Part shown: piece after piece, positions 2,765 to 63,424 of the stretch
Position numbering within the stretch: position 1 is the stretch's first letter
Layout of the letters: every line of letters starts with the position of its first letter
Assembly (NCBI RefSeq): GCF_036967205.1
Contig: NZ_CP146022.1
Location: forward strand, 4,960,001 to 5,024,000
Reading direction: 5' to 3'
DNA from: Streptomyces sp. Q6
Lineage (GTDB): Bacteria; Actinomycetota; Actinomycetes; Streptomycetales; Streptomycetaceae
Length of the DNA stretch: 64,000 nucleotides
Notes under the pieces: model-generated
The model's database searches: none
Told to the model about the DNA's origin: nothing
What the model saw: the letters and a program-made list of their open reading frames with translations, nothing else
Made by a program: the position numbers and the translations under genes

Positions 2765-2765
2765 C

Positions 2766-3110: not shown

Positions 3111-3124
3111 GAAGGACGGACACC

Positions 3125-6310: not shown

Positions 6311-6323
6311 GAACGAACTGTTC
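6311..6323. promoter_or_regulatory. TetR-type operator-like dyad
   Basis: GAACGAACTGTTC is a short inverted repeat (GAAC-5-GTTC) beside a related GTCGGTTC. It overlaps the stop codon of the MFS gene and lies 110 bp upstream of the DUF485 start. TetR-family sites often look like this, but no TetR gene is nearby. Confidence 0.25.
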
Positions 6324-7908: not shown

Positions 7909-8204
7909 TTCATTCCCCCTGCATCTATCCCCGGCCAGGAGCTTATGCGGGTGGAGGCGACCCTGAGTAGGCCTCCACCGAGGGATGGACCTCCCCTAGG
8001 GGGACCTCCGTACAACGGACCGGGGATCACTCGTCCCGCCGGAGGACGAGACGGCAGGGGGGTTCTTCCTACCGTTCAGGGGTGGGGTTTTCCCCCGGGA
8101 AAGACGGTGACTTCCACCAGCGCGCCCGAGGCCCCGCGTCACCAGACTTGAAGCAGTTCCGCAGAGCGCTGCGGACGCCGGGCAACCGACATAGGAGACG
8201 TACC
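7909..8204. promoter_or_regulatory. Divergent promoter region, MFS and ABC/FtsX genes
   Basis: No gene is evident here. CCCCTAGGGG at 7993-8002 is a perfect palindrome within a purine/pyrimidine-biased stretch (about 7970-8010). A GGTTTTCCCCCGG element lies at 8087-8099. Both are plausible regulator sites for the divergently transcribed transporter genes. The ABC gene has AGGAGACG just before its GTG start. Confidence 0.35.
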
Positions 8205-8993: not shown

Positions 8994-11575
8994 GTGCCAA
9001 CACCGTCATGAAGACCTCGCTGCGCAACTTCTTCGCGCACAAGGGCCGGATGGCCCTCTCAGCGGTCGCCGTGCTGCTGTCCGTCGCGTTCGTGACCGGG
9101 ACGCTCGTGTTCACGGACACGATGGACAAGACCTTCGACAAGCTGTTCACGGCCACCGCGTCCGACGTCACCGTCAGCCCGAAGGACTCCGAGTCCGAGG
9201 GCAGCGCCACCGGCCGGCCCGAGTCGCTGCCGGCGTCCGTCCTGGCCACCGTGAAGCAGGCCGACGGCGTCAAGTCGGCCGAGGGCGCGGTCAGTTCGAT
9301 GGACGTCACCGTCGTGAACGCCGACAACGAGAACATGGGGTCCGAGAACGGCGCCCCGACCATCGCCGGCAACTGGACCACGAACGACCTGCGGTCCATG
9401 GAGATCACCTCCGGGCACGCGCCGCGCGGCCCCACCGAGGTGATGGTCGACGCCGACACCGCGAAGAAGCACCACCTCAAAATGGGTGACGAGCTGCGCA
9501 CGATCGCCGTCACCGGCGACATCAGGGCGAAGATCGTCGGTATCGCCTCCTTCACCGTCACCAACCCGGGCGCGGCCGTCGTCTACTTCGACACCGCCAC
9601 CGCCCAGCGCGAACTCATCGGAAAGACCGGGCAGTTCACGCAGATCAACGTCGCCGCGGCGGCGGGCGTCTCGGACGCCGAGCTGAAGCGACACGTCACG
9701 GCCGAACTCGCGTCCTCCGGCACGTACAAGATCCAGACGCAGCAGCAGACCGCGGACGCCAACGCCTCCGACGTCGGCTCCTTCATGGACGTCATCAAGT
9801 ACGCCCTGCTCGGCTTCGCCGGCATCGCCTTCCTCGTCGGCATCTTCCTGATCATCAACACGTTCTCGATGCTGGTCGCCCAGCGCACCCGCGAGATCGG
9901 CCTGATGCGCGCCATCGGCTCGTCCCGCAAGCAGGTCAACCGCTCCGTGCTCGTCGAGGCGCTGCTGCTCGGCGTCGTCGGCTCGGTGGTCGGCGTCGGC
10001 GCCGGTGTCGGCCTCGCCGTCGGCCTGATGAAGCTCATGTCCTCCATGGGCATGGACCTGTCCACCGACGACCTGACCGTGAAGTGGACGACGCCGGCGA
10101 TCGGCCTGCTGCTCGGCATCGTCGTGACCGTGCTGGCCGCCTACCTGCCCGCCCGCCGGGCCGGCAAGGTCTCCCCGATGGCCGCCCTGCGCGACGCGGG
10201 CACCCCGGCCGACGTCAAGGCGGGCCCCGTCCGCGCCGCCATCGGACTCGTCCTCACGGGCGGCGGCGGCTTCGCCCTCTACCTCGCGACGCAGGCCGAC
10301 AAGGCGAGCCAGGGCTCGCTGTGGCTGGGCGTCGGCATCGTCGCCTCGCTCATCGGCTTCGTCGTCGTCGGCCCGCTCCTCGCGGGCATCGTGGTCCGCG
10401 TCATCAGCGCCGTACTGCTCCGCTTCTTCGGCCCCGTGGGACGGATGGCCGAGCGCAACGCGCTGCGCAACCCGCGCCGCACCGGCGCGACCGGCGCGGC
10501 CCTGATGATCGGCCTCGCACTCGTCGCCTGCCTCTCCGTCGTCGGCTCCTCGATGGTCGCCTCGGCCACCGACCAGCTGGACAAGTCGGTCGGCGCGGAC
10601 TTCATCGTCGAGGGCCAGGGCGGCATCAAGCCGCAGGCCGCGAACGCCCTGAAGGCGGTCGAGAAGGACGGCCTCGTCTCCCACGTCACCGAGGTCAAGT
10701 GGGTCAAGGCCACCGTGACCACCCCGGGCGGCGCCAAGGAGGAGCAGGAACTCTCCGCGGCCAGCCCCAGCTACACGCAGGACCTGCGGCGCGAGGCCAC
10801 CTCCGGTGAGCTCTCGGCGGCGTACGGGAAGAACGCGATGTCGGTCGGCTCCGAGTTCGCGGAGCGCAACCACCTCAAGGTCGGCGACACGATGACCGTC
10901 GCCTTCGCCCACGGCTCCACGGCGAAGCTGAAGCTCGCGGCGATCACCTCGGACGACACCGCGTTCGACAAGGGCGCGATGTACACGAACATCGCGACGG
11001 CCGAGCAGTACCTGCCGAAGGACCGGGTGCCGCTGAACGGGATGATGTTCGCCAAGGCCGCCGACGGCAAGGCCGACGCCGCCTACAAGGCGCTCAAGAA
11101 GTCCGTCGCCGCCGACCCGACCGTCAAGGTCAAGGACCAGACCGACTACAAGGAGACCCTGAAGGACCAGGTCGGCCAGCTCCTGAACATGATCTACGGC
11201 CTGCTCGCGCTCGCGATCATCGTGGCGGTCCTCGGCGTGGTCAACACGCTGGCCCTCTCGGTGGTCGAGCGGACCCGCGAGATCGGCCTCATGCGGGCCA
11301 TCGGCCTCTCCCGCCGCCAGCTGCGCCGCATGATCCGCCTGGAGTCGGTGGTCATCGCCCTCTTCGGCGCCCTGCTCGGCCTCGGGCTCGGCATGGGCTG
11401 GGGCGCGACCGCCCAGAAGCTCCTGGCCCTGGAGGGCCTCGGCGTCCTGGAGATCCCCTGGCCGACGATCATCGGGGTCTTCATCGCCTCGGCCTTCGTG
11501 GGCCTGTTCGCGGCGCTGATCCCGGCGTTCCGCGCGGGGCGGATGAACGTGCTGAACGCGATCGCCACGGACTGA
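8990..11575 (+). CDS. FtsX-type ABC transporter permease, two FtsX modules
   Basis: The 861-residue permease starts in an ATGA overlap with the ATPase gene. It has an N-terminal helix, a large extracytoplasmic domain, three helices (NTFSMLVAQRTREIGLMRAI and following), a second N-terminal-type helix plus extracytoplasmic domain, and three C-terminal helices with NTLALSVVERTREIGLMRAI. The two REIGLMRAIG coupling segments mark the two FtsX modules. Proteins of this type act in mechanotransmission or export of peptides and lipids; the cargo is unknown. A strong hairpin follows at 11661. Confidence 0.9.
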   Translation: MSANTVMKTSLRNFFAHKGRMALSAVAVLLSVAFVTGTLVFTDTMDKTFDKLFTATASDVTVSPKDSESEGSATGRPESLPASVLATVKQADGVKSAEGAVSSMDVTVVNADNENMGSENGAPTIAGNWTTNDLRSMEITSGHAPRGPTEVMVDADTAKKHHLKMGDELRTIAVTGDIRAKIVGIASFTVTNPGAAVVYFDTATAQRELIGKTGQFTQINVAAAAGVSDAELKRHVTAELASSGTYKIQTQQQTADANASDVGSFMDVIKYALLGFAGIAFLVGIFLIINTFSMLVAQRTREIGLMRAIGSSRKQVNRSVLVEALLLGVVGSVVGVGAGVGLAVGLMKLMSSMGMDLSTDDLTVKWTTPAIGLLLGIVVTVLAAYLPARRAGKVSPMAALRDAGTPADVKAGPVRAAIGLVLTGGGGFALYLATQADKASQGSLWLGVGIVASLIGFVVVGPLLAGIVVRVISAVLLRFFGPVGRMAERNALRNPRRTGATGAALMIGLALVACLSVVGSSMVASATDQLDKSVGADFIVEGQGGIKPQAANALKAVEKDGLVSHVTEVKWVKATVTTPGGAKEEQELSAASPSYTQDLRREATSGELSAAYGKNAMSVGSEFAERNHLKVGDTMTVAFAHGSTAKLKLAAITSDDTAFDKGAMYTNIATAEQYLPKDRVPLNGMMFAKAADGKADAAYKALKKSVAADPTVKVKDQTDYKETLKDQVGQLLNMIYGLLALAIIVAVLGVVNTLALSVVERTREIGLMRAIGLSRRQLRRMIRLESVVIALFGALLGLGLGMGWGATAQKLLALEGLGVLEIPWPTIIGVFIASAFVGLFAALIPAFRAGRMNVLNAIATD

Positions 11576-11583
11576 CCTCCGGC

Positions 11584-11667
11584 GGTACGTGACAGCCGGC
11601 ACGCGACAGCTGGTACGTGACAGCCGGCACGTGACAGTCGGTACGGGGGAGTCGGTACGGGGCAGGG
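11584..11667 (+). repeat. Six imperfect 14-bp tandem repeats
   Basis: Units starting at 11584, 11598, 11612, 11626, 11640 and 11654 follow the pattern GGTACGTGACAGCC with a few changes. The array starts 8 bp after the permease stop and runs into the terminator. Confidence 0.8.
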
Positions 11668-11699
11668 GCCCGGGGAGCTTGTGCTCCCGGGCCCCTGCC
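11661..11699 (+). terminator. Hairpin terminator after the ABC/FtsX operon
   Basis: Arms of 18 and 17 bases (GGCAGGGGCCCGGG... and its complement) pair around a TTGT loop with one bulged G. There is no T-run, as is common in Streptomyces. Confidence 0.75.
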
Positions 11700-11875
11700 G
11701 CGTGCTCGGCAGGGGTGGCCGTGGCCCTCCCGCGTCCCCTCCGCCGCCCCTCTCCCGGCCGGCGCGTCCGCTCGCCGAGTCGAAGAGCGTCCGGCGTCGT
11801 ACCCTGGAGAACCCCCGGCCCGTTCGACGTGTCGGGCCCTTTGCGTTGCCCACTGACCCGGGACGGATCTTCTCC

Positions 11876-14800
11876 ATGAGTCTGCACGGACTGCTCGACG
11901 CCGTCGTCAAGGACGCCGCCCTCGCGGAAGCGATCAAGGCGGCCGGTGACGGCAACCGCATGCACATCGACCTCGTGGGCCCGCCCGCGTCGCGGCCCTT
12001 CGTTCTGGCCGCGCTCGCGCGCGAGGCGAAACGTCCCGTCCTGGCCGTCACCGCCACCGGCCGCGAGGCCGAGGACCTGGCGGCCGCGCTGCGCTCGCTG
12101 CTCCCGGAGGACGGGGTCGCCGAGTACCCGTCGTGGGAGACGCTGCCGCACGAGCGGCTCTCCCCCCGGTCGGACACGGTCGGCCGTCGCCTCGCCGTGC
12201 TGCGCCGGCTGACCCACCCGAGCACCGACGACCCGGAGACCGGTCCCGTGTCGGTGGTCGTCGCGCCGATCCGCTCCGTGCTCCAGCCGCAGGTCAAGGG
12301 GCTCGGCGAGCTGGAGCCCGTCGCCCTGCGCAGCGGGCAGAGCGCGGACCTGAACGAGATCGTCGAGGCGCTGGCCGCCGCGGCGTACGCCCGCGTCGAG
12401 CTGGTCGAGAAGCGCGGCGAGTTCGCGGTCCGCGGCGGCATCCTCGACGTCTTCCCGCCGACCGAGGAACACCCGCTGCGCGTCGAGTTCTGGGGCGACG
12501 ACGTCGAGGAGATCCGCTACTTCAAGGTCGCCGACCAGCGGTCGCTGGAGATCGCCGAGCACGGGCTGTGGGCGCCGCCCTGCCGGGAACTCCTGCTCAC
12601 CGACGACGTGCGCGCCCGCGCGGCCGAACTCGCCGAGCGGCACCCCGAGTTGGGCGAACTGCTCGGGAAGATCGCCGAGGGTATCGCGGTCGAGGGCATG
12701 GAGTCCCTCGCGCCCGTCCTCGTCGACGAGATGGAGCTCCTGATCGACGTCCTGCCGGCCGGGTCGATGGCCGTGGTCTGCGACCCGGAGCGGGTGCGGA
12801 CCCGGGCCGCCGACCTGGTCGCCACGTCCCAGGAGTTCCTCCAGGCGTCCTGGGCGGCGTCCGCGACCGGCGGCGAAGCCCCCATCGACGTGGGCGCCGC
12901 CTCGCTGTGGGCCGTCGCCGACGTACGGGAGCGGGCGCGTGAGCTCGGCATGATGTGGTGGTCGGTGTCGCCGTTCGCCGCCGATGTCACGTGGACGTCA
13001 GCCGCCGACGCGGCGGGCGGCGCGGACACCCTCCAGCTCGGCATGCACGCCCCCGAGACCTACCGCGGCGACACCGCGAAGGCGCTGGCGGACACCAAGG
13101 GCTGGCTCCAGGACGGCTGGCGCACCGTCTTCGTCACCGAGGGGCACGGGCCCGCGGCCCGCACCGTCGAGGTGCTCGGCGGCGAGGGCATCGCCGCCCG
13201 CCTCGACAAGGACCTCACCGCACTCGCCCCGTCCGTCGTGCAGGTGGCCTGCGGCAGCCTCGAAGTCGGTTTCCTGCACCCGGAGTTGAAGGTCGCGGTC
13301 CTCACCGAGACCGACCTGACCGGGCAGCGGTCGGCCGGCAAGGACGGCCAGCGGATGCCCGCCAGGCGCCGCAAGACCATCGACCCGCTCACGCTGGAGT
13401 CCGGCGACTACATCGTGCACGAGCAGCACGGTGTCGGCCGCTACATCGAGATGGTGCAGCGCACCGTCCAGGGCGCGACCCGCGAGTACCTCGTCGTCGA
13501 GTACGCCCCCGCCAAGCGCGGCCAGCCCGGCGACCGCCTCTACATCCCCACGGACCAGCTGGAGCAGATCACCAAGTACGTGGGCGGCGAGGCGCCCACC
13601 CTGCACCGGCTCGGCGGCGCCGACTGGACGAAGACCAAGGCGCGCGCCAAGAAGGCCGTCAAGGAGATCGCCGCCGACCTCATCAGGCTGTACAGCGCGC
13701 GCATGGCGGCGCCGGGCCACGCCTTCGGCCCGGACACGCCCTGGCAGCGCGAGCTGGAGGACGCGTTCCCGTACGCGGAGACGCCCGACCAGCTCACCAC
13801 GATCGCCGAGGTCAAGGAGGACATGGAGAAGACGGTCCCGATGGACCGCCTGATCTGCGGTGACGTCGGCTACGGCAAGACGGAGATCGCGGTCCGCGCG
13901 GCCTTCAAGGCGGTCCAGGACGGCAAGCAGGTGGCGGTCCTCGTCCCGACGACCCTGCTGGTGCAGCAGCACTTCGGCACGTTCAGCGAGCGCTACTCCC
14001 AGTTCCCGGTGGCCGTGCGGGCGCTGAGCCGTTTCCAGACGGAGACCGAGTCGAAGGCCACCCTGGAGGGCCTCAAGGACGGCTCGGTCGACATCGTCAT
14101 CGGCACCCACCGGCTCTTCTCGTCCGAGACCCGGTTCAAGGACCTGGGCCTGGTCATCGTCGACGAGGAGCAGCGGTTCGGCGTCGAGCACAAGGAACAG
14201 CTCAAGAAGCTGCGCGCCAACGTCGACGTCCTGACGATGTCGGCGACCCCCATCCCCCGTACGCTCGAAATGGCCGTGACCGGCATCCGCGAGATGTCGA
14301 CGATCACGACACCGCCCGAGGAGCGGCACCCGGTCCTCACCTTCGTCGGTCCGTACGAGGAGAAGCAGATCGGCGCGGCCATCCGCCGCGAACTCCTGCG
14401 CGAGGGCCAGGTCTTCTACATCCACAACCGGGTCGAGTCGATCGACCGGGCGGCGGCGCGGCTGCGCGAGATCGTGCCCGAGGCGCGGATCGCGACGGCC
14501 CACGGCCAGATGTCCGAACAGGCCCTGGAGCAGGTCGTCGTGGACTTCTGGGAGAAGAAGTTCGACGTCCTCGTCGCGACGACGATCGTCGAGTCCGGCA
14601 TCGACATCTCGAACGCCAACACGCTGATCGTGGAGCGCGGCGACAACTTCGGCCTCAGCCAGCTCCACCAGCTGCGCGGCCGGGTCGGGCGCGGCCGCGA
14701 CCGCGGCTACGCCTACTTCCTCTACCCGCCGGAGAAGCCGCTCACGGAGACGGCCCACGAGCGCCTCGCCACCATCGCGCAGCACACGGAGATGGGCGCG

Positions 14801-52311: not shown

Positions 52312-53913
52312 CTACCTCCCGGACGGCTGCCTGGGGACGACCCGCAACAACTGAGGGTCGAACGGCGCTCGCCGTGACATGCCGGGCGGCAACGGCATGA
52401 CGATCACCGATTCGATCACGTCGGCGATCGCCGCGCGGCGTTCGGTCAGGCTCATGGCGGGCCACCGGCCGGGGTCCCGGTGGGGTCGGAGCGCCGTGCC
52501 GGCCGCCAGATGCTCGGCACGTGCCGCCTCGAGCCCGGCGATCCTTCCCGAGAGGTCGGCGACCGCGGCGGAACTCCCGGGATCCGCGGAGGCCCCGGAG
52601 AGCAGGTGGAGTTCCTCGGTCAACTGCCGCAGCAAGGCCTCGCCCTCCCAGCCGGCGCGAGGTGCGCAAGGAGGCGCGGGGCGGTCCAGGAGCAGCCCGT
52701 TCACGACGTCCACCAGGTGGGCGTCCACGGCGCGGACATTGCGCGAGGTGCCTCCGCAGTCCATCGCCGCGCAGACGTAGACCGCGTTGTCGGGGACCCG
52801 GGGCGTGGGCCTGGCGCAGCCGCCCATACGGGAGAGACAGGTGCGGCCGTCCTTGACCGCGCCGCACCGCAGGAACCCGCTGAAGAGGTACTTGCGCAGG
52901 GGCGTGGGCGGCGCCTCGGGCGGCCTGCTGCCGTTGGTGAGCCGGGTGCCGCTCCGCGCGCCGTTGTGCCGGGAGATCTCCACGAGCGCGCGCCACTCGT
53001 CCGGGGTGGCGACGGCGTCCCATGCTCCGACGACCGGGACGCCTGTCGTCGGATGCGTGACCAACTCGCCGTGCAGGAAGCGGTATCCGCACAGCACGGG
53101 ATTGGTCAGCGCCTGCCGTACGGTCGCTCCGCTCCAGGGGTTCTCCGATGCCGTGCGTACGCCACGGCTGTTCAGATCGCGGGCGATCGCGTTCCAGCCC
53201 CGGCCCTCCAGCGCGGCGTCGACCATCTCGCGCAGCACCGGCCACTCGGCGGGATCCTTGCGCATATTGATCTTGCGGCCTGAGCGCGGGTCGGGCGGGA
53301 GCCAGCCAAATCGGCGCCGCCCGCCGGGAGTTCCGCCGTCCAGCGCGCGTCGGCGGACATGCCGCCCGATGCGCTCGCCGGTGCGTCGCACCTCCTCGAC
53401 GCCCGCGCGGCCGATTTCCGAGCGGTCGACCGAGTGGATGTCGACGCGTTCCCTGCGTGCGATCAAGAGGCCGTCGTCCGTGACGGTCAGGGCGCGGTGC
53501 AGCCGCCGGAAGTCCTCGGGGAGCCGCCAGATCCGTTCGTGCTCCGTCGCCACGAGCGCGCGAACGGGGAAGCCCTCGGGGGTGCGGCGGCAGTGCAGCG
53601 CGTGCACGGCTTGGTCGAACGAGGGCCGGGGGACCTTCGGGTGCGTGGCCCCGATCCCGTTGTCCTCATGGAACGTGACGACGGCCACGCCGAACTCCTC
53701 GGCCGCCTCGCTGTTCTCCTCGTGCTGATGCCGGACGCCCGTGCCGGGCTCACGCCCCCTGGCGAGGATGGATGACCGGGTGCTCTGGTCGGCCGTGATC
53801 CGCGCGTAGTCGATGCCCGGAACTCTGCCGTCGAGCCATTGTTCAAAGGTGCGCCCCTCCTCAAGGGCCGTGACGAGCAGGGGATTGAGGAAGCTGCGTG
53901 ACCATCCGGGCAC
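52312..53913 (-). CDS. Large serine recombinase, probably degenerate
   Basis: The 533-residue protein has the large serine integrase plan. The N-terminal resolvase-like domain reads IDYARITADQSTR at residues 35-47 and VATEHERIWRLPEDF later. It is followed by a recombinase domain (GRRRFGWLPPDP, GWNAIARDLNSRGVRTASEN), a zinc ribbon (FSGFLRCGAVKDGRTCLSR and VCAAMDCGG) and a C-terminal coiled coil. The catalytic Ser expected after YxR reads Thr40, which would abolish activity unless the nearby Ser46 is used. No other phage or element gene is adjacent. GTG 53913 has AAGGA about 8 bases upstream. Confidence 0.8.
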   Translation of the reverse strand: MPGWSRSFLNPLLVTALEEGRTFEQWLDGRVPGIDYARITADQSTRSSILARGREPGTGVRHQHEENSEAAEEFGVAVVTFHEDNGIGATHPKVPRPSFDQAVHALHCRRTPEGFPVRALVATEHERIWRLPEDFRRLHRALTVTDDGLLIARRERVDIHSVDRSEIGRAGVEEVRRTGERIGRHVRRRALDGGTPGGRRRFGWLPPDPRSGRKINMRKDPAEWPVLREMVDAALEGRGWNAIARDLNSRGVRTASENPWSGATVRQALTNPVLCGYRFLHGELVTHPTTGVPVVGAWDAVATPDEWRALVEISRHNGARSGTRLTNGSRPPEAPPTPLRKYLFSGFLRCGAVKDGRTCLSRMGGCARPTPRVPDNAVYVCAAMDCGGTSRNVRAVDAHLVDVVNGLLLDRPAPPCAPRAGWEGEALLRQLTEELHLLSGASADPGSSAAVADLSGRIAGLEAARAEHLAAGTALRPHRDPGRWPAMSLTERRAAIADVIESVIVMPLPPGMSRRAPFDPQLLRVVPRQPSGR

Positions 53914-54331: not shown

Positions 54332-55267
54332 CTACTCCACGAAGAGGCCGCGCTCCGCCGCTCGTGCGTCGAACTCCTCCAGGCGGGCCTGGGCCTGTGG
54401 CAGGCCGTCGCACATCGCTTCCAGGAGTACCCGGCCCAGGAGCATCGGCGCGCACGCCGTGTCGAAGGCGAGGCCGGTGCCGACCGCCGCGGGGAGCAGC
54501 AGGTCGGAGTGTTTGGCGACGGGGGCGAAGGCCGAGTCGGCGACGGTGACCACGGTGAGGCCCGCCGATTTGGCGTGGGCGAGTGCGTCGACGACCTCGC
54601 GGGGGTGGCGGGGGAGCGCGAAGCAGAGCAGGGTCGTGGCTCCGGCGCGGACCGCCGCGTCGATCCGGTCGGCGAGCATCGTGCCGCCTTCGTCGAGCAG
54701 GCGTACGTCCGGGTGGACCTTCGCCGCGAAGTACGAGAAGCCGTACGCCTGGGAGGCGGCGGCGCGCAGGCCGATGACGGGCAGGGTCGGCGAGGCGGCG
54801 AGGAGACGGCCCGCCCGTTCGACCGGGGCCGGGTCGGCGAGGAGGTCGGCGAGGTGGCGCAGGTTGGCGATCTCGGCCTCGACGGCCTGCTGGTACTCAT
54901 TGGCCTTGGTGGCCGTGGTCGGTTCGGTGGGGGCGACCTCGCGCAGGTGTTTGCGCAGGGCGGGGTAGCCGTCGAAGCCGAGGGCGACGGCGAACCGGGT
55001 CACGGACGGCTGGCTGACGCCGGCCAGTTCGGCCAGTTCCACCGAGGAGAGGAACGGGACGTCGGCCGCCCGGCGGACCATGCAGTGCGCGATGCGCCGC
55101 TGGGTGGGCGTGAGGCGGTGTCCCTCGAAGAGGTGCTGGAGGCGGCTGGCCGGGCTGTGTCCGCCCTGGCCGGCCGGTCCGGCGGCGCCGCTCGCCGTGT
55201 TCGTGTGCTCGCTCTCGCTCATGTCTCCCCGTCCCGGCGGTCCATTCATGGAGGCCGATTTGTGCAT
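54332..55267 (-). CDS. MurR/RpiR-family transcriptional regulator
   Basis: The protein has an N-terminal HTH_6 domain (RLTPTQRRIAHCMVRRAADV, VELAELAGVSQPSVTRFAVA, LGFDGYPALRKHLRE) and a C-terminal SIS domain (IGLRAAASQAYGFSYFAAKV, LCFALPRHPREVVDALAHAK, VVTVADSAFAPVAKHSDLLL). SIS domains usually bind sugar phosphates, but RpiR-type regulators also control amino-acid catabolism. It has 311 residues from ATG 55267; inner ATGs at 55249 or 55222 are possible as no start has a good ribosome site. It probably regulates the lyase and transporter genes nearby. Confidence 0.88.
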   Translation of the reverse strand: MHKSASMNGPPGRGDMSESEHTNTASGAAGPAGQGGHSPASRLQHLFEGHRLTPTQRRIAHCMVRRAADVPFLSSVELAELAGVSQPSVTRFAVALGFDGYPALRKHLREVAPTEPTTATKANEYQQAVEAEIANLRHLADLLADPAPVERAGRLLAASPTLPVIGLRAAASQAYGFSYFAAKVHPDVRLLDEGGTMLADRIDAAVRAGATTLLCFALPRHPREVVDALAHAKSAGLTVVTVADSAFAPVAKHSDLLLPAAVGTGLAFDTACAPMLLGRVLLEAMCDGLPQAQARLEEFDARAAERGLFVE

Positions 55268-55323
55268 GAGTTTATTCAGGCAGGGGGCGGGGGCGCCAGG
55301 CTTTGGGTTGCTACGTTGCCGGG

Positions 55324-55839
55324 ATGGGGTTTCTGGAGAGGCTGACCGGCACGAGGCGTCCCGCCGAGGGGGTCGCGCCGCGCTCCGCGCAGGAGGTGCG
55401 GGAGCTGCTGCTCTCGCTGGGCGGGGGTGACGTGCCCTGGGTCGTGCGGGGTGCCGCGCCGGAGGAGGAGGTGGAGTTCGTCGCCGAGTGGCGGGTGCGG
55501 GAGCCGGCCTGGTGGGGGTTCTTCCGGGGCCGGCGCGTGGACCGCACCGTGCGGATCAGGACGCGGCTGGTTCCGGAGGACCGGGAGGTGCGGGCCCTCC
55601 AGGAGCAGTGGGAGGTCAGCTGGGTCGACGGGACGCCCCGGTTCGCCCGGTCGCGCGCGTACGGGCGGGGGCAGGGTCGTACCGTCGGCGGGCAGTGGAC
55701 GTTCGGGCGGGACGAGGGCGGCGGGCGCCGCCTGGAGGAGACCTTCCGTTTCGACACGGCGGAGCTGACCGACCCGGTGCGGGACGCGGTGCTCGGGGCC
55801 GGGTGGACGTGGCGTGCGGTGACCTTCGGGAAGCTGTAG
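55324..55839 (+). CDS. Uncharacterised protein, probably leaderless mRNA
   Basis: The 171-residue protein MGFLERLTGTRRPAEGVAPR is soluble, with alternating strands (DVPWVVRGAAPEEEVEFVAE, VRIRTRLVPEDREVRALQEQ, WEVSWVDGTPRFARSRAYGR). A -10 box TACGTT (55312-55317) lies 6 bp before ATG 55324, so the transcript is probably leaderless. Similar proteins exist widely in Streptomyces, but I do not know a family role. It is divergent from the regulator and convergent with the next gene, 5 bp apart. Confidence 0.7.
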   Translation: MGFLERLTGTRRPAEGVAPRSAQEVRELLLSLGGGDVPWVVRGAAPEEEVEFVAEWRVREPAWWGFFRGRRVDRTVRIRTRLVPEDREVRALQEQWEVSWVDGTPRFARSRAYGRGQGRTVGGQWTFGRDEGGGRRLEETFRFDTAELTDPVRDAVLGAGWTWRAVTFGKL

Positions 55840-55844
55840 CGCGT

Positions 55845-56840
55845 TCACGACCTGCGGCGCAGGGTCCGTCGGGTGCGGGCGGTGGCGACGAGTGTGGCGC
55901 GGGCCGCTCGGCGCGGTAACGGGGTGCGGACCGGGCGGTCCCGGCGGGTGGGTGCCGTGTCGGGGAAGCGGCGGCGTTCGCGGTGCGAGACCGCGCCGCC
56001 GATGCCGCCGACCGCGGTGAGGAGGAGGCCGGCGCCGATCAGGCCGTCGTTGACGTCGTTGCCGGTGGAGCCCTCCCAGTCCGCGTTGTAGAGGTCGCCC
56101 TTCCAGGGCCCGTACGAGACGACCCAGCCGTATTCGAGGTCGGGGATGAGCTTGTCGCGGTGGCCCTCGCAGATGAAGGTGGCCGTGCGGTGTTCGTGGG
56201 TCAGCGGGTCCTTGAGGCTGACGCGGCAGGGGCCCGCCTGCGTGGTGTCGTCGATCACCTTCAGCTCGACCATGGGGTCGTGGTCGGCGGCCGTCGAGCC
56301 CGCGACGCCGAGCCCGCCGACGATCAGGCCGAGCAGCAGGACCCAGCGGTAGCGGGCGTGGCGTCGCACGAGGGGGCGCACCCACGTGAGGGTGTCGCCG
56401 CCGGGGGTGGACAGGACGCCGCCGTGTTCGGGGGTGCCTGACCACCACAGCGGGCCGTTCTCCGTCGGGCGGCGGGCGGGGTTGTTCCGGGTGGCTTTGA
56501 GGTGGATCCGGATGTCCGACGCCGGGTCGCGCAGGACGATCACGTGGTCTCGGTGCACCTCGACGAGGCGGTGGGCCCAGGGGTGGGTCTTCAGGGTGCG
56601 CCGCATGCGGTGGGTGTGGAGGAGGGACAGGAGCCCGCCCACGAGCGTGACCATGCCCACCACGGTCAGGGCATCCGACGGCTCGTCCGCCCAGGCCGAC
56701 AACCCCGCACCGATCAGGGCCATGACCGCGCCGAAAGCCACTGATGCGAGTGACCTGCGCCGATACTCGGTCAGGGTCCGCTGTGTCGCGTCGGTGGCCG
56801 GCTCCGGCCCCGGCTGCCCCTGCGTCTTCGTCATGTCCAT
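55845..56840 (-). CDS. Multi-helix membrane protein containing a TTA codon
   Basis: The 331-residue protein has two helices near the N-terminus (SLASVAFGAVMALIGAGLSA, ALTVVGMVTLVGGLLSLL), a cytoplasmic middle, a third helix (WVLLLGLIVGGLGVAGSTAA), an extracytoplasmic loop with two Cys, and a fourth helix (GLIGAGLLLTAVGGIGGAVS), ending in an Arg-rich tail. A TTA Leu codon lies at 55917-55919 (in VRTPLPRR), so full translation should need the bldA tRNA. It starts 42 bp after the lyase gene and may be its operon partner. Function is unknown. Confidence 0.75.
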   Translation of the reverse strand: MDMTKTQGQPGPEPATDATQRTLTEYRRRSLASVAFGAVMALIGAGLSAWADEPSDALTVVGMVTLVGGLLSLLHTHRMRRTLKTHPWAHRLVEVHRDHVIVLRDPASDIRIHLKATRNNPARRPTENGPLWWSGTPEHGGVLSTPGGDTLTWVRPLVRRHARYRWVLLLGLIVGGLGVAGSTAADHDPMVELKVIDDTTQAGPCRVSLKDPLTHEHRTATFICEGHRDKLIPDLEYGWVVSYGPWKGDLYNADWEGSTGNDVNDGLIGAGLLLTAVGGIGGAVSHRERRRFPDTAPTRRDRPVRTPLPRRAARATLVATARTRRTLRRRS

Positions 56841-56882
56841 CGGCCCCCCATGCCCAATGTCCAGTGGAGCAAGGGTAGTTGC

Positions 56883-58343
56883 TCAGGTCATCAAGCGCTC
56901 CAGCAAGGACGCGGCTCGTGCCACGTCCTGGGTGAGCGGGCGGTCCGCCAGGTCGGGTGAGAGTTCCGCGTCGGCGAGGTCGAAGGCGCGGCCCACGGGG
57001 AGGTCGGGGTCGGGGCGCAGGTCGCGCTGGCGCAACGCCCGTACCGCCGCGACGAGTTCGCACCCCACGACCTGCCGGTACGCGGTGCACAGGCGCAGCG
57101 TCTGGCGTGCGGCGAGGGAGGCGAAGCTGGCCTGTTCCTCGACGCCCCGGGACAGGACGGCGTGGCCGAGCGAGGCGGGGGCGGAGAAGGCGCGCAGGTC
57201 GCCGAGGGCCGCGCCCGCCGCGTACTCCAGGATCATGACGCCGGACGACGCGGGTTCGCCGTCCGCGAGGAAGGGGCGCAGGCGGGTGTACGCGGGTTCG
57301 TTGAGGGTGGACAGGCGTGAGGTGGACAGGCGGGCGACCTGGGTGACGGAGAGCCTGAAGTGGTCCAGGGCGAGCGCGAGTTGGGCCATGTAGAAGCCGC
57401 CGTGGTGGTACGCGGCCATGTCCTCGGGGGAGATGAGGGGGTTCTCGGCGGCGGCGTTGATCTCGACCGTGAGGACGTCTTCGAGGGCGTCGGCCGCGTC
57501 GGCCGCCGGGCCGTGGATCTGGGGGACGCAGCGGAAGCCGTACGGGTCCTGGATGCGGCCGAGCGGCGGTGTGGGCCGGTCGGCGGCGCCCAGGATCTCG
57601 CGCATCCGGGCGGCCACGTCGTACGAGCCCTTGTGGCGGCGGGCCTCGTGCACCGGGAGCGCGTAGGCCTCGTAGGAGCCGTCGGTGGCCAACAGGCTGA
57701 GGGCGGCGACGAGTTGGGTGGCGTTCAGCAGGGTGCGCAGTTCGTCCAGGGCGAGCGCGGACTGACCGAGGGTGAGGGCGTTCGAGGAGATCAGGGCCAA
57801 CGCGTCGTTGTTGTCCAGGGGTTGGGCCTGCGGCGGGGTGCCCTTGCCGCGCCACGGGTGTTCGCCCGCGAGGGCGAGGCCCATCTGGGCCAGGGGTGCG
57901 ATGTCGCCGGTGCCGACGGAGCCGTGTTCGTTGACGGCGGGGTGCGCGCCGTTCTCCAGGGCCTCGCACAGGGCGGTGACGACGGTGGGGCGCAGTCCCG
58001 CGCCGCCGGCGAGGAGCTGGTTGGCGCGGACGGCGAGCATGGCCCGTACCTCGCGTTCGGGCAGTTCGGCGCCGATCGCGCCCGCGTGGCTGCGCAGCAG
58101 GCGCAGGCCGTGGTCGGCGGCGGCCTCGGTGGGGACGTCCTCGCTGCGGTTGGCGCCGACGCCGGTGGAGCGGCCGTAGACCCTGCCCCACGCGGCGATC
58201 TCGCGGGCGGCGTTCCAGGACTCCTCGACCCGCTTCATCGCGTCCGTGCCGGGGACCGGCCGGGCCGTCGCGTCGGCGAGGCGGACTACGTCGGCGACCG
58301 GGAGGCCGTGGCCGTCGAGCACGACGACGGGGTGGGGCACCAT
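56883..58343 (-). CDS. Histidine-ammonia-lyase-like enzyme lacking the MIO triad
   Basis: At 486 residues this matches the aromatic amino-acid ammonia-lyase fold. Substrate residues of histidine ammonia-lyase are kept: Tyr56 in VYGRSTGVG, His86 in LLRSHAG, Asn188 in SSNAL, Tyr268/Arg271 in DPYGFRC, and Glu402/403. The MIO loop, normally GSVGASGDLAPL, reads GSVGTGDIAPL (141-151), one residue short and without Ala-Ser-Gly, so no MIO cofactor can form. Ergothionase, a known MIO-independent member, removes trimethylamine from ergothioneine. ATG 58343 follows GAGGAGGAG. It should not be called HutH without testing. Confidence 0.85.
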   Translation of the reverse strand: MVPHPVVVLDGHGLPVADVVRLADATARPVPGTDAMKRVEESWNAAREIAAWGRVYGRSTGVGANRSEDVPTEAAADHGLRLLRSHAGAIGAELPEREVRAMLAVRANQLLAGGAGLRPTVVTALCEALENGAHPAVNEHGSVGTGDIAPLAQMGLALAGEHPWRGKGTPPQAQPLDNNDALALISSNALTLGQSALALDELRTLLNATQLVAALSLLATDGSYEAYALPVHEARRHKGSYDVAARMREILGAADRPTPPLGRIQDPYGFRCVPQIHGPAADAADALEDVLTVEINAAAENPLISPEDMAAYHHGGFYMAQLALALDHFRLSVTQVARLSTSRLSTLNEPAYTRLRPFLADGEPASSGVMILEYAAGAALGDLRAFSAPASLGHAVLSRGVEEQASFASLAARQTLRLCTAYRQVVGCELVAAVRALRQRDLRPDPDLPVGRAFDLADAELSPDLADRPLTQDVARAASLLERLMT

Positions 58344-58483
58344 GCGCTGCTCCTCCTCGAAAGGTGGCGAAGGTGACAAAAAGCCACCAAGGGGGCGTCC
58401 GCGTCTCAGAGTTCGGTCCCCGTGAGGGGATTTACCGGTGATTTACGCGGGAGCATTGACAAGTTATTCACGCACCAAGAACT

Positions 58484-58501
58484 CTGCATGACGATATGCA
58501 G
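58484..58501. promoter_or_regulatory. Inverted repeat in the divergent lyase/transporter promoter region
   Basis: CTGCAT (58484-58489) and ATGCAG (58496-58501) form an inverted repeat 30 bp before the ABC gene. Just upstream, TTGACA (58456) overlaps GTTATTCA; a related GTTTATTCA lies at the regulator's own start (55270). These shared motifs could be binding sites of the RpiR protein. No gene lies in 58344-58530. Confidence 0.4.
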
Positions 58502-58530
58502 GACGGGCAAGAGGACTCCAGAGGCGCTCC

Positions 58531-59682
58531 ATGATCCAGTTCGAAGCGGTCCACAAACGATTCCCGAACGGCACGACAGCGGTGCACGATCTCTCGCTCG
58601 ACATGCCGGAAGGGGGTGTGACCGTCTTCGTGGGCTCCTCGGGCTGCGGCAAGACGACCAGCCTCCGGATGATCAACCGGATGGTCGAGCCCACCTCCGG
58701 CACGATCCGCGTCGGCGGGCGTGACGTCCTCGACCAGGACGCTGCCGAGCTGCGGCGCTCCATCGGCTACGTCATCCAGCAGGCCGGCCTGTTCCCGCAC
58801 CGCACCGTCCTCGACAACATCGCCACCGTGCCGCTGCTGCTCGGCTGGGGCCGCAAGAAGGCGCGGGCCGCGGCCGGTGACCTCCTGGAGCGCGTCGGGC
58901 TCTCCGCCGAGATGGGCAAGCGCTACCCGCACCAGCTCTCCGGCGGGCAGCAGCAGCGCGTCGGTGTCGCGCGGGCACTCGCCGCGGACCCGCCGGTGCT
59001 CCTCATGGACGAGCCGTTCGGTGCCGTCGACCCCGTCGTGCGCACCCAGCTCCAGGACGAACTCCTGCGGCTCCAGAAGGACTTGAACAAGACCATCGTC
59101 TTCGTCACGCACGACATCGACGAGGCGGTGCGGCTCGGCGACCGCATAGCCGTGTTCCGCGAGGGCGGGCATCTGGTGCAGTGCGCTCCGCCGGCGGAGC
59201 TGCTCGCCCGGCCTGTGGACAGCTTCGTCGCCGACTTCCTCGGGGCCGAGCGGGGGCTGAAGCTGTTGTCGTTGTCGACGCTGGCGGATGTGCCGCAGGG
59301 TCCCGCACCCGAGGGCGGTTCCTGGGAGCTGGTCCTCGACGCGTCGCGGCGGCCCGTCGCCTGGCGGGCCGGGGAGGCCGAGACGCCCGTACGGGCTTTG
59401 CGGGACGGGGATTCACTGCTCTCGGCGCTGAACGAGTCGGTCGCTTCGCCGGTCGGGCTCGTCGCCCGCGTCGATGCGGAAGGGGTGTTGACCGGTGTCT
59501 CGTCCCGGGACGACATCCATCAGCGGGCCGGGGCCGCTCATGCTGCTGCCCTGTCGGGCGTGCCGTCTCGGGTCTCCGCCCCGGACCCCGCTGCTCAATC
59601 GCCGCAGGGGCTTGAAGATTCGGACCCCGCCGTCGACAAGTCCGCGGGGTTTGACGATGCGGCTGCGAAGGACCTGGCATGA
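58531..59682 (+). CDS. Betaine-type (OpuCA/ProV-like) ABC transporter ATPase
   Basis: This 383-residue ATPase has GSSGCGKTTSLRMINRM (Walker A), LSGGQQQRVGVARAL and LLMDEPFGAVDPV (Walker B). RMINRMVEPTSGTI is typical of the quaternary-amine (QAT) subfamily. A C-terminal regulatory region with one CBS-like half (LALNES... SPVGLVARVDAEGVLTGVSS) follows, then a disordered tail. It is cytoplasmic and powers the two permeases encoded next; its stop overlaps the first permease start (ATGA). Confidence 0.9.
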   Translation: MIQFEAVHKRFPNGTTAVHDLSLDMPEGGVTVFVGSSGCGKTTSLRMINRMVEPTSGTIRVGGRDVLDQDAAELRRSIGYVIQQAGLFPHRTVLDNIATVPLLLGWGRKKARAAAGDLLERVGLSAEMGKRYPHQLSGGQQQRVGVARALAADPPVLLMDEPFGAVDPVVRTQLQDELLRLQKDLNKTIVFVTHDIDEAVRLGDRIAVFREGGHLVQCAPPAELLARPVDSFVADFLGAERGLKLLSLSTLADVPQGPAPEGGSWELVLDASRRPVAWRAGEAETPVRALRDGDSLLSALNESVASPVGLVARVDAEGVLTGVSSRDDIHQRAGAAHAAALSGVPSRVSAPDPAAQSPQGLEDSDPAVDKSAGFDDAAAKDLA

Positions 59683-60329
59683 GTGTCGACTGGTCCTGGA
59701 TCGGGGAGCACAAGGGCGACCTTGTCAGTCTCTCCGTGTCCCATCTTCAAGCCGCCCTCACCGCCGTCCTGTTCGGGCTGCTCATCTCCCTGCCGCTCGC
59801 CGTCCTCGCGCACCGCGTGCGGCCCCTGCGCGGCTTCCTCCTCGGGCTGTCGAACGTCCTGTTCACCATCCCGTCCATCGCCGTGTTCGTCCTGCTGCTC
59901 CCGGTGTCCGGGCTCACCCGCACCACCACCGTCATCGGCCTGACGATCTACACCCTCGTCGTGCTGCTGCGGAACACCGTCGAGGGACTCGACTCCGTAC
60001 CGCACAAGACGAAGGAAGCCGCCAAGGCCATGGGCACGCGGCCGCTGCGCACGCTGCTCACCGTCGAGCTGCCGCTCGCCCTGCCGGTCATCATGGCGGG
60101 CGTCCGGATCGCCACCGTGATGGCCATCTCCCTGGTCTCGGTGGCCACGTACATCGGGGACGGCGGCCTCGGCCAGCTGTTCACCGACGGGTTCCAGCGG
60201 AACTTCCCGACCCCGGTCATCGTCGGCGTCGTTCTTACGCTGCTGCTCGCGCTCGTCGCCGACGCGGCCCTGGTCGGCGTGCAGCGGCTGCTCACGCCGT
60301 GGGCCCGGCCCCGTACCCGGAAGGCCTGA
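59679..60329 (+). CDS. Betaine-type ABC permease 1
   Basis: This 216-residue inner-membrane protein has about five helices and the QAT permease motif GLTIYTLVVLLRNTVEGLDS followed by EAAKAMGTRPLRTLLTVELP, the EAA loop that contacts the ATPase. It begins in an ATGA overlap with the ATPase gene and ends 6 bp before the second permease gene. Confidence 0.9.
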   Translation: MSVDWSWIGEHKGDLVSLSVSHLQAALTAVLFGLLISLPLAVLAHRVRPLRGFLLGLSNVLFTIPSIAVFVLLLPVSGLTRTTTVIGLTIYTLVVLLRNTVEGLDSVPHKTKEAAKAMGTRPLRTLLTVELPLALPVIMAGVRIATVMAISLVSVATYIGDGGLGQLFTDGFQRNFPTPVIVGVVLTLLLALVADAALVGVQRLLTPWARPRTRKA

Positions 60330-60335
60330 ACCGCC

Positions 60336-61022
60336 ATGTACGAACTCCTCAAGAACCTGGGCGCGTGGCTGGTCAGCGGCGAGCAGTGGGCCGGGTCCGA
60401 CGGCATCGCGCACCGGCTCGCCGAACACCTCCAGTACTCGCTTCTCGCCACGCTCATCGCCGCCGCGATCGCGCTGCCCGTCGGCCTGCTCATCGGGCAC
60501 ACCGGGCGCGGCGCCTTCCTCGCCATCAACCTGTCGTCGTTCGGCCGCGCGCTGCCGACCGTCGGCCTCGTCGTGCTCGTGTTCCTCGCGAGCGGCCTGT
60601 CGATGTGGCCCGTGTACATCGCCCTCGTCGCGCTCGCCGTGCCGTCCATCGTGACGAACACGTACGCGGGGATGACCGCCGTCGACGCCGAGGTGAAGGA
60701 CGCCGCGCGCGGCCAGGGCATGCGCGGCCACCAGGTCCTCCTCCAGGTCGAGTTGCCGCTCGCGCTGCCGCTCGTCATGACCGGTCTGCGGCTCGCCCTC
60801 ATCCAGGTCGTCGCGACCGCCACCATCGCCGCGTACGTCTCCTTCGGCGGTCTCGGCCGCTACGTCTTCGACGGGCTCGCCCAGCGCGATCTCGTGCAGG
60901 TGCTCGGCGGCGCCGTCCTCGTCGCGCTCGTCGCCGTCGTCCTCGACCTGGCCCTGTCCGGGCTCCAGCGACTCCTCTTCCGTCACCGGCCCACCGGCCC
61001 CGCCCCCCTCAAGTCCGCCTAG
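60336..61022 (+). CDS. Betaine-type ABC permease 2
   Basis: The 228-residue protein resembles the first permease, with a longer N-terminus and the EAA-type loop VKDAARGQGMRGHQVLLQVE. LPTVGLVVLVFLASGLSMWP is the family's central helix. Two separate permeases indicate an OpuC-like BCD arrangement (heterodimer) rather than a permease fused to the binding protein. Confidence 0.9.
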   Translation: MYELLKNLGAWLVSGEQWAGSDGIAHRLAEHLQYSLLATLIAAAIALPVGLLIGHTGRGAFLAINLSSFGRALPTVGLVVLVFLASGLSMWPVYIALVALAVPSIVTNTYAGMTAVDAEVKDAARGQGMRGHQVLLQVELPLALPLVMTGLRLALIQVVATATIAAYVSFGGLGRYVFDGLAQRDLVQVLGGAVLVALVAVVLDLALSGLQRLLFRHRPTGPAPLKSA

Positions 61023-61033
61023 GAGCGCCCCAG

Positions 61034-61972
61034 ATGAACCGACGTACCCTCCTCGGCGGCCTGTTCGCCGCGGCCGCGGTCCCCGCCGTCACGGCCTGCT
61101 CCGGCGGCATCACCTCCCTCGACGGCGCCGGCGGCTCGGGCGGTTCCGGCGCCGGGTCCAGCAAGGGCGGCGTCACCATCGGCACCGCCAACTTCACCGA
61201 GAACCAGGTCCTCGGGTATCTGTACGCGGCCGTGCTCGAAGCGGCCGGGGTGAAGACCACCGTGCGGCCCAACCTCGGCACCCGCGAGATCCTCATCCCC
61301 GCGCTCAAGGGCGGGGACATCGACCTGCTGCCCGAGTACCAGGGCGCCCTCCTGCACTACCTCGCGCCGAAGGCCACCGCCACCGAGGAGGGCGAGATGC
61401 AGAACGCGCTCGCCATGGCCCTCCCGGCGGGCCTCCAGATCCTCCCGTACGGGATGGCCGAGGACTCGGACGCGTTCGTCGTCACCCGGCAGACCGCGAA
61501 GAAGTACCACCTCACGTCCCTCGCCGACCTGGCGAAGCACAACGGCGAGCTCGTCATCGGCGCCGCGCCCGAGGTCAAGAAGCGGCAGGTGGGCGCCGTC
61601 GGCCTCAAGGACGTGTACGGCGTCGAGTTCAAGGAGTTCAAGTCCCTCGACTCCTCGGGGCCGTTGGTCAAGGGCGCCCTGAAGAAGGGCGATGTGGACG
61701 TGGCGAACCTGTTCACCACCGACACCGACATCGCCGCCAACGACTGGGTCGTCCTCACCGACCCGAAGAACCTCGTCCCCGGCCAGCACATCGTCCCGCT
61801 GATCGCCGACCGCAAGGCCGACTCGACGGTCCGCAAGGCCCTCGCGCGCCTCGGCAACGTCCTGACGACCGAGCAGCTCACCGAGCTCAACCGGCTCGTC
61901 GACAAGGACAAGAAGGACCCCGAGGACGTCGCCAACGACTACGCGGCGCAGCACGGCCTGGCCAAGAAGTAG
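61034..61972 (+). CDS. Betaine-type solute-binding lipoprotein
   Basis: ATG 61034 gives MNRRTLLGGLFAAAAVPAVT and a lipobox Cys22. The mature protein has the OpuAC/ProX fold: GVTIGTANFTENQVLGYLYA, NLGTREILIPALKGGDIDLL and PEYQGALLHYLAP. Aromatic residues that form a cage around quaternary ammonium groups are expected but cannot be confirmed here. It binds the substrate outside and delivers it to the permeases. It has 312 residues and is 11 bp from the second permease. Confidence 0.92.
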   Translation: MNRRTLLGGLFAAAAVPAVTACSGGITSLDGAGGSGGSGAGSSKGGVTIGTANFTENQVLGYLYAAVLEAAGVKTTVRPNLGTREILIPALKGGDIDLLPEYQGALLHYLAPKATATEEGEMQNALAMALPAGLQILPYGMAEDSDAFVVTRQTAKKYHLTSLADLAKHNGELVIGAAPEVKKRQVGAVGLKDVYGVEFKEFKSLDSSGPLVKGALKKGDVDVANLFTTDTDIAANDWVVLTDPKNLVPGQHIVPLIADRKADSTVRKALARLGNVLTTEQLTELNRLVDKDKKDPEDVANDYAAQHGLAKK

Positions 61973-61981
61973 GAGGAACCC

Positions 61982-63424
61982 ATGGCAGCGGTAGTGGAGA
62001 AGCACTCCATCGACGTCGTCCCCGACAGCGAGCGGCACGGGCGCGCCTTCCACCAGTTCACGCTCTGGCTCGGCGCGAACCTCCAGATCACGGCCGTCGT
62101 CACCGGCGCGCTCGCCGTCGTCTTCGGCGGCGACGTGGTCTGGTCGCTGGCCGGCCTCGTGCTCGGCAACCTGCTCGGCGGCGCCGTCATGGCGCTGCAC
62201 TCCGCGCAGGGGCCCAAGCTCGGGCTGCCGCAGATGATCCAGTCGCGGGCCCAGTTCGGCGTCAAGGGCGCCGTCGTACCGCTGCTCCTCGTGATCCTCA
62301 TGTACGTCGGGTTCTTCGCGTCCGGCAGCGTGCTCGCCGGGCAGGCGACGGCCGAGCTGACGCACACGAACGACGCGACCGGCATCGTGCTGTTCGCCGT
62401 CGTCACGGCCGTCATGGCGGCCGTCGGCTACCGCGTCATCCACATCCTGGGCCGGGTCGCCAGCGTCGTCTGCGCGCTCGCCTTCGTCTACCTCGGCGTC
62501 CGGCTGCTCGACCGCGTCGACCTCGGCGACCTGCTCGGCGACGCGCACTTCTCGCTGCCGATGTTCCTGCTCGCCGTCTCCCTGTCGGCGTCGTGGCAGC
62601 TCGCCTTCGGCCCGTACGTCGCCGACTACTCGCGCTACCTGCCGCGTGACACCAGCGCCAAGGCCACCTTCTGGTGGACGCTGTCCGGTTCGGCGATCGG
62701 CTCGCAGTGGTCGATGACGTTCGGTGTGCTGGTCGCGGCCTCCTCGGGCGGCGCGTTCCTCGACAACCAGGTCGGGTACGTCGTCTCGCTCGGCGGCGCC
62801 GGACTCGTCGCGTCGTTCTTCTACTTCGTGATCGCGCTCGGCAAGCTCACCATCAACGTGCTCAACACGTACGGCGGCTTCATGTCGATGGTGACGGGCA
62901 TCAGCGGGTTCCGCGGGCAGCGGGCCCTGTCGCAGCGCGGCCGCGCCGTCTACATCGCGCTCATCATGGTCGCGGGTACCGCTGTCGCCCTCGTCGGCAA
63001 GGACAGCTTCCTGGCGTCGTTCAAGGACTTCCTGCTGTTCCTGCTGACGTTCTTCACACCGTGGTCGGCCGTCAACCTCGTCGACTACTACCTGATCTCC
63101 AAGGAGCGGTACGACATCCCGGCCCTCGCCGACCCCCGCGGCCGGTACGGGGCCTGGCGCTGGGACGCGCTCGTCGTCTACGCGGTCGGTGTCCTCGCCC
63201 AGCTGCCGTTCCTGGCCACGCACTTCTACACCGGTCCACTGGTCGAGCCGCTCGGCGGCGCCGACGTGTCGTGGATCGTGGGCCTCGTCGTCCCGGCCGT
63301 CCTGTACTGGGCGCTCGCCCGGCGCGACACCTCGCACGTGCCGGAGCGCACGATCCTGGGGACACCGGACGAGCCGGGCAAGAGGGGGGTTAGCCCCACT
63401 GTCACGGGCGCCGGCGCTGCGTAA
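61982..63424 (+). CDS. NCS1-family permease (cytosine/purine-type)
   Basis: This 480-residue transporter has 12 helices and the NCS1 signature regions, FHQFTLWLGANLQITAVVTG, PQMIQSRAQFGVKGAVVPLL and AFGPYVADYSRYLPRDTSAK. NCS1 proteins move nucleobases, hydantoins and allantoin with H+ or Na+. It follows the binding protein by 9 bp with a good GTAGGAGGA ribosome site, so it belongs to the same operon. In this context an imidazole- or hydantoin-like breakdown product is a plausible substrate (inference). Confidence 0.85.
   Translation: MAAVVEKHSIDVVPDSERHGRAFHQFTLWLGANLQITAVVTGALAVVFGGDVVWSLAGLVLGNLLGGAVMALHSAQGPKLGLPQMIQSRAQFGVKGAVVPLLLVILMYVGFFASGSVLAGQATAELTHTNDATGIVLFAVVTAVMAAVGYRVIHILGRVASVVCALAFVYLGVRLLDRVDLGDLLGDAHFSLPMFLLAVSLSASWQLAFGPYVADYSRYLPRDTSAKATFWWTLSGSAIGSQWSMTFGVLVAASSGGAFLDNQVGYVVSLGGAGLVASFFYFVIALGKLTINVLNTYGGFMSMVTGISGFRGQRALSQRGRAVYIALIMVAGTAVALVGKDSFLASFKDFLLFLLTFFTPWSAVNLVDYYLISKERYDIPALADPRGRYGAWRWDALVVYAVGVLAQLPFLATHFYTGPLVEPLGGADVSWIVGLVVPAVLYWALARRDTSHVPERTILGTPDEPGKRGVSPTVTGAGAA

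Follow-up and report, generated by a model that had tools for sequence, protein, structure and literature searches.

What does an enzyme of the histidine ammonia-lyase (HAL) family do once it has lost the family's 4-methylideneimidazole-5-one (MIO) cofactor motif, and why does its gene stand among transporter genes? This question is raised by a locus in a 64,000-nucleotide stretch of the 8.95-Mb Streptomyces sp. Q6 genome (G000:C1:4960001-5024000; hereafter the window), whose nearest relatives in our comparison set are Streptomyces. The gene at 56883..58343 (minus strand) encodes a 486-residue HAL-family protein (PF00221, 377 bits), and it lies close to genes for an RpiR-type regulator, an ATP-binding cassette (ABC) transporter and an NCS1 permease. 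A first-pass annotation, made from the letters alone, had taken the protein for an MIO-independent lyase akin to ergothionase and tied to uptake genes, and its motif, its place in the tree and our reading of related loci bear this out. We propose, with moderate confidence, that this MIO-independent lyase of the HAL superfamily would make urocanate, most likely from hercynine, and feed it into the adjacent histidine utilization (hut) pathway.

The lyase lacks the MIO serine and is akin to ergothionase

The MIO region of the window lyase reads GSVG-TG-D where HAL enzymes have GSxG-ASG-D; it is one residue shorter and lacks the MIO serine. No Ala/Cys/Thr-Ser-Gly triad was found in the window lyase in the alignment or in the locus reads, and its place is taken by G141-S-V-G-T-G-D147 (57903..57923, minus strand), a GSVGTGD motif that was present at 80 of 80 Streptomyces loci. 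With the hutH equivalog model TIGR01225 the protein scored 295.4 bits, below the cut-off of 539.15. The residue alignment comprised 46 hand-chosen lyases: 18 HAL, 3 aromatic lyases (TAL, aminomutase), 14 of the window type (TGD), 5 of the ergothionase type (ERG) and 3 each of two other MIO-less groups (QAD and YLIA). The MIO serine was present in 18/18 HAL and 3/3 aromatic-lyase rows and in no MIO-less row (0/14 TGD, 0/5 ERG, 0/3 QAD, 0/3 YLIA), directly supporting its loss. At the position of Asn195 (HAL numbering, as for Glu414 below), Asn was found in 21/21 MIO rows and Ser in 22/22 TGD, QAD and ERG rows as well as in 2/3 YLIA rows. The equivalents of Tyr53 and Arg283 were kept in all 46 rows. 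The equivalent of Glu414 (window Glu402) was kept in 43/43 HAL and MIO-less rows, including 14/14 TGD rows, and is Gln in 3/3 aromatic-lyase rows, indicating an imidazole substrate for the window lyase.

Ergothionase of Treponema denticola (6s7j/6s7q; 6s7j is the only solved structure of that name among the PDB matches) is likewise a HAL-superfamily protein in which a one-residue deletion removes the MIO serine and Ser occupies the Asn195 position, and its Tyr53, His83, Arg283 and Glu414 equivalents are kept in the window lyase. A Lys in an IQK motif, which we picked from the alignment as an ergothionase marker and which presumably has a functional role there, occurs in 4/5 ERG rows; Tyr stands at this position in 14/14 TGD and 16/18 HAL rows. 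The window lyase therefore shares with HutH this Tyr, besides the superfamily, the imidazole-type Glu and hut linkage, and differs from it in lacking the MIO triad, in falling short of the equivalog cut-off and in being encoded by a genome that has a HAL as well.

In a maximum-likelihood tree of the 46 rows (unrooted), a branch with support of 100/99 parts TGD, QAD and ERG from HAL, the aromatic lyases and YLIA, which directly supports kinship with ergothionase. TGD and QAD pair up outside ERG, with support of 95/83; an earlier unrooted tree of 33 rows gave the same 100/99 split without the QAD-TGD pairing. The five ERG rows form a clade (100/100) to which the window lyase does not belong, its identity being 26-29% to ERG, 26-33% to HAL, 32% to QAD and 39-93% to TGD rows. 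One MIO loss for TGD, QAD and ERG, and a second for YLIA, would explain these trees.

Some variants of the lyase gene were also seen. Three Streptomyces genomes (L121, L122, L128) have lyase open reading frames (ORFs) of 592-656 residues with an in-frame insert between approximately residues 169 and 265 (window numbering). In Nonomuraea (L113, 10001-11398) an in-frame stop interrupts the lyase match; since the called ORF runs to 11341, the protein may just have a shorter C-terminus.

The lyase gene is linked to canonical hut genes

A single urocanase was found in the genome (PF01175 search), at 5028852, outside the window, 10.5 kb from the lyase gene and 5.4 kb beyond the NCS1 gene. It scored 915 bits with the hutU model and 668 bits with the thiourocanate hydratase model, below the cut-off of 930. 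After it come a gene for an M20 protein (653 bits with the allantoate amidohydrolase model; cut-off 372), a hutF-like stretch (50% identical to Arthrobacter hutF) and hutI (369 bits; cut-off 298). The genome also encodes an MIO-type HAL (motif Cys-Ser-Gly) 0.32 Mb off. A role of the lyase as HAL replacement was rejected because a HAL exists in this genome and in the gene run of G041 described below.

In the proposed pathway, the lyase would form urocanate from a derivative of histidine whose leaving group is better than ammonia, likeliest from hercynine by 1,2-elimination of trimethylamine, and HutU, HutI, HutF and the M20 amidohydrolase would carry urocanate on to glutamate. The OpuC-type ABC system would take up what the lyase acts on, or an imidazole amino acid related to it; the NCS1 permease would bring in a compound of the pathway, for instance urocanate; and the RpiR protein is the likely local regulator. 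Hercynine is our preferred single substrate on two grounds: a quaternary amine could leave without MIO, as in ergothionase, and the product would be urocanate.

In a survey of 295 sampled Streptomyces genomes, the lyase (called at E 1e-100 or better) was present in 123. Linkage was counted in the 53 of these 123 genomes with six contigs or fewer, which hold 56 lyase genes, and hutU lay within 25 kb of 46 of the 50 genes of at least 69% identity. Among 80 Streptomyces loci, 58 showed hutU in the sequence that was fetched; of the 22 that did not, one side was shorter than 9 kb in 12, and 10 have 9-10 kb on both sides, six of these ten without and four with an RpiR gene. In the four RpiR-bearing loci, hutU may lie beyond the fetched stretch, as it does in the window genome. 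The RpiR gene itself was found at 66 of the 76 Streptomyces loci where 2.5 kb could be read on its side of the lyase.

Outside the main Streptomyces clade we read 11 TGD loci, some of them from other Streptomyces, and hut genes flank the lyase in three, all from actinobacteria (L114, Arthrobacter; L117, G118; L118, G041). The Arthrobacter plasmid carries genes for IclR, four ABC proteins, canonical HutU and the lyase, with divergent M20 and hutF genes (hutF 551 bits; cut-off 362). The G041 run comprises RpiR, symporter, HAL, ABC, lyase, M20, hutU, hutF-like and hutI genes; since it holds both HAL and lyase, the lyase adds to HAL there. ABC genes lie beside the lyase in 7/11 loci (L116, a 7.7-kb contig, shows no binding protein), and three loci (L113, L115 and L120, the last only 4.2 kb) have neither hut nor ABC genes. 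The QAD lyase adjoins hutU in 3/3 loci of at least 7 kb (L123, L124, L125), and an RpiR gene, 47-49% identical, is present in 4/5 QAD genomes; the fifth contig stops beside hutU. Linkage to a canonical urocanase is in this way directly supported in several genera.

One Klebsiella plasmid record (L138), read in detail, encodes hutG, hutI, NCS1, hutU, four ABC genes, an MIO-less lyase, hutD, hutC and a hutF-type gene. Like the window it combines an ABC set, an MIO-less lyase and an NCS1 permease; unlike that of the window, its lyase groups with YLIA, which the tree places with HAL. Close relatives of this lyase are common on plasmids: the best match was at least 90% identical in 164 of 895 matching plasmid records, coverage not considered. 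Within the stretch 815-14157 of this conjugative plasmid, the MIO-less lyase is the only annotated HAL-like gene. Similar ABC sets with YLIA-type MIO-less lyases were seen on Sodalis (L137, 9806-14206) and Neorhizobium (L139, 9885-14350) plasmids.

Ergothioneine is disfavored as the substrate

The first-pass annotation had named ergothioneine, hercynine or a similar betaine as the compound broken down. As a positive control we used a Burkholderia Ert cluster (L146), in which the genes near an ERG-clade lyase score above the cut-off as thiourocanate hydratase (1050 against 930 bits), thiohydantoin desulfurase (608 against 440 bits) and ErtD (694 against 600 bits). The window genome resembles this cluster in that its MIO-less lyase has a hydratase of the urocanase family and an amidohydrolase as neighbors, and differs from it in that its urocanase and its desulfurase relative do not pass the cut-offs that the Burkholderia hydratase and desulfurase pass. 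Eight urocanases beside MIO-less lyases were scanned (four TGD, two QAD, one YLIA and the Paracoccus ERG-clade one), and 8/8 scored higher as hutU and below the thiourocanate cut-off. Of 61 genomes that carry a TGD or QAD lyase, none has a desulfurase over the cut-off (0/61); 3/61, the window genome included, hold a sub-cut-off relative. That of the window genome (L150; G000:C1:5312764-5313789) scored 252 bits, below both curated cut-offs, and lies beside an M20 peptidase gene, 295 kb from the lyase.

Measured against this control, ergothioneine catabolism is disfavored by clade, by Tyr in place of Lys, by urocanase type and by the desulfurase search, and the binding protein described below lacks the EgtU determinants. 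Of the substrates first proposed, ergothioneine is thus not upheld, whereas an imidazole compound remains most likely, with hercynine the best candidate that we infer. Neither ERG-clade membership nor the Lys was accepted as proof of substrate, since on a Paracoccus plasmid (L141, 2546-9599) a Lys-bearing ERG-clade lyase gene sits in a hut operon with hutH, right after a canonical hutU.

Transporters, regulator and other features of the locus

Family searches found every RpiR, lyase, ABC and NCS1 gene at the positions first annotated. On the plus strand (58531-63424) lie genes for an ABC ATPase of ProV/OpuC type (58531..59682; ABC_tran; TIGR01186 303 bits, below the cut-off of 326.6), two ABC permeases (59679..60329 and 60336..61022; both BPD_transp_1), an OpuAC-family substrate-binding protein with an altered pocket, Asp144-x-Asp146 (61034..61972; PF04069, 187 bits), and the NCS1 permease, a proposed urocanate-type transporter (61982..63424; PF02133, 192 bits). 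The minus strand carries the lyase gene and the RpiR-type gene (54332..55267; HTH_6, 43 bits). Genes and orientation were thus as expected of one divergent cluster; two unrelated ORFs (55303-55839 and 55845-56840), however, separate the RpiR gene from the lyase gene, and the transporters are inconstant partners. The first of these ORFs has a relative in 2/80 Streptomyces loci, and the second a partial match in 1/80. Of the 80 loci, 68 could be read for 6 kb on the transporter side: the four ABC genes occur without NCS1 in 33 of these and together with it in 18, NCS1 alone is found in six, neither in nine (four of them with short ABC remnants), and a partial ABC set in two, one of which has NCS1.

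The binding protein has Lmo1422 and EgtUC as its best PDB sequence matches. Using the EgtU residues named in PMC9732360, with positions 242-244 placed through the Lmo1422 alignment, we found that this member of the EgtUV binding-protein family keeps the equivalents of Glu375 and Arg379. Unlike EgtU, it has Ala, Phe, Arg and Tyr for Lys242, Gly244, Thr275 and Phe293, and Asp, Asp, Phe and Gln for Asn339, Tyr341, Tyr419 and Tyr443; the same replacements were seen in 26/26 Streptomyces binding proteins, save one Asn at 339. The EgtU determinants Lys242, Gly244, Thr275, the Phe293/Tyr337 switch and Asp381 were not found in the window protein. The assignment as a betaine-type ABC transporter stands for the OpuAC family (PF04069), but the ligand does not follow from it, half of the quaternary-amine cage being lost. 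Among the 16 aligned binding proteins (15 besides the window's), the full four-aromatic cage occurs only in L118, beside the G041 TGD lyase, and in L123, beside the G206 QAD lyase, two cases that count in favor of the proposal.

The NCS1 permease had been suggested to handle an imidazole or hydantoin-like product. On the Klebsiella plasmid an NCS1 gene with 53% identity to it stands between hutI and hutU (its best paralogue in its own genome is 43% identical), and because of that gene order we regard uptake of urocanate as more likely than that of a hydantoin. The RpiR gene is 48-52% identical to RpiR genes in the hut clusters of G041, G195 and G184 (tblastn); a profile search of the protein at E 0.001 matched HTH_6 and gave no SIS-family match.

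The divergent lyase and ABC genes are separated by 187 bp (58344..58530), in which a consensus scan gave no sigma-70-like site and the only repeats are short. A 533-residue ORF between cbs and the RpiR gene (52312-53913, minus strand), whose sole Pfam match is to the Recombinase domain PF07508 (55 bits), is possibly a degenerate serine recombinase. The AlphaFold models were poor, with a predicted local distance difference test (pLDDT) of 60.7 and a predicted template modeling score (pTM) of 0.70 for the lyase, and 51.6 and 0.42 for the binding protein, and we base nothing on them.

Discussion

Several observations weigh against a urocanate-forming hercynine lyase. The best PDB match of the window protein is HAL 7tqr (180 bits), ahead of ergothionase 6s7j (152 bits). 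Ergothionase is thought to exploit the thione of its substrate, which hercynine lacks, so that the chemistry would be harder. The binding protein keeps two of the four cage aromatics and gains two Asp, a pocket less suited to a quaternary amine, and the caged transporter in G041 could serve something else in its run. The host has an EgtD-type methyltransferase gene (PF10017) and hence a futile hercynine cycle would be possible. In Streptomyces, 4/50 close lyase genes and 6/6 paralogues (53-62% identity) lie 2.1-4.4 Mb from hutU, and the linkage is largely one inherited gene order, which we did not count as independent evidence; in 8/11 TGD loci outside the main clade no hut gene was seen, though some of these contigs are short. 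The Sodalis and Neorhizobium YLIA lyases precede genes for a coenzyme A (CoA)-transferase, a 3-hydroxyacyl-CoA dehydrogenase and an enoyl-CoA hydratase, which suggests another fate for an acrylate, and, to judge by the Paracoccus operon, neither the Lys nor the clade decides which substrate is used.

Urocanate could instead arise from another imidazole compound: from histidine without the help of MIO, from an N-methylated histidine or, by elimination of water, from imidazole lactate. To this alternative we give a smaller yet appreciable weight. It would account for the same hut linkage; Asp-x-Asp together with the kept Glu and Arg of the binding pocket would suit an ordinary ammonium better than trimethylammonium, and Pseudomonas hutXWV is reported in a review to share in histidine uptake (PMC8871633). 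It sits poorly with the presence of an MIO-type HAL, elsewhere in this genome and, in G041, within the very run that holds the lyase. Moreover, elimination of ammonia from histidine is held to need MIO. That the substrate is a betaine or amino acid without an imidazole ring, and the product a different acrylate, appears improbable: the CoA-type genes after YLIA lyases with a similar ABC set speak for it, but YLIA is a separate clade, the TGD clade is found in hut loci of several genera, and the imidazole-lyase Glu is kept, as it also is in YLIA rows.

That the lyase is an ergothionase, forming thiourocanate and trimethylamine from ergothioneine, we regard as more improbable again. The MIO deletion and the Asn-to-Ser change common to the lyase and 6s7j, and the desulfurase relative in the genome (252 bits against a cut-off of 440), would agree with it, while the low identity to ERG rows, the position outside their clade, Tyr for Lys in 14/14 TGD rows, a single canonical urocanase nearby instead of a thiourocanate hydratase, 0/61 genomes over the desulfurase cut-off and the missing EgtU determinants count against it. 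Least probable is that the protein is a HAL paralogue devoid of catalysis, serving to sense or titrate a hut metabolite. In favor, the cofactor motif is lost, and in 9/68 loci the lyase persists with neither ABC nor NCS1 genes intact; against it, Tyr56, His86, Gln265, Arg271 and Glu402 are invariant in 32/32 Streptomyces rows, and ergothionase is a precedent for an active MIO-less member.

The gene combination has precedents in the Klebsiella plasmid and in Pseudomonas, where a review describes hutTu, hutXWV and hutH1 as a module (PMC8871633), and where two papers identify HutTu as a urocanate transporter (PMC12977541, PMC7319117). The Pseudomonas module, compared by description only, resembles our locus in placing an ABC set, a HAL-like lyase and a permease beside hut genes. 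PA5093 was not taken as the HAL-like gene of Pseudomonas, as PMC12772324 assigns it to hutG. We found no description of this gene set in Streptomyces in the titles and abstract openings searched, and no paper on hercynine degradation in the literature searched, with subscription journals thinly covered in both cases.

If the hercynine lyase proposal is true, many Streptomyces HAL-like genes (123/295 genomes) would encode trimethylamine-releasing betaine lyases, and hercynine, the ergothioneine precursor, would have a catabolic route, which is relevant to ergothioneine production strains, where hercynine loss matters. HAL-like genes of hut loci that are dispensable for growth on histidine would become directly testable. 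More broadly, and tentatively, these MIO-less lyases with their own transporters may form a widespread, unrecognized second door into histidine breakdown, taking hercynine to urocanate and trimethylamine, with an actinobacterial sister group of the ergothionases and a separately arisen YLIA counterpart in Klebsiella plasmid hut clusters, to which the Pseudomonas HutH1 described as 'not required' perhaps also belongs.

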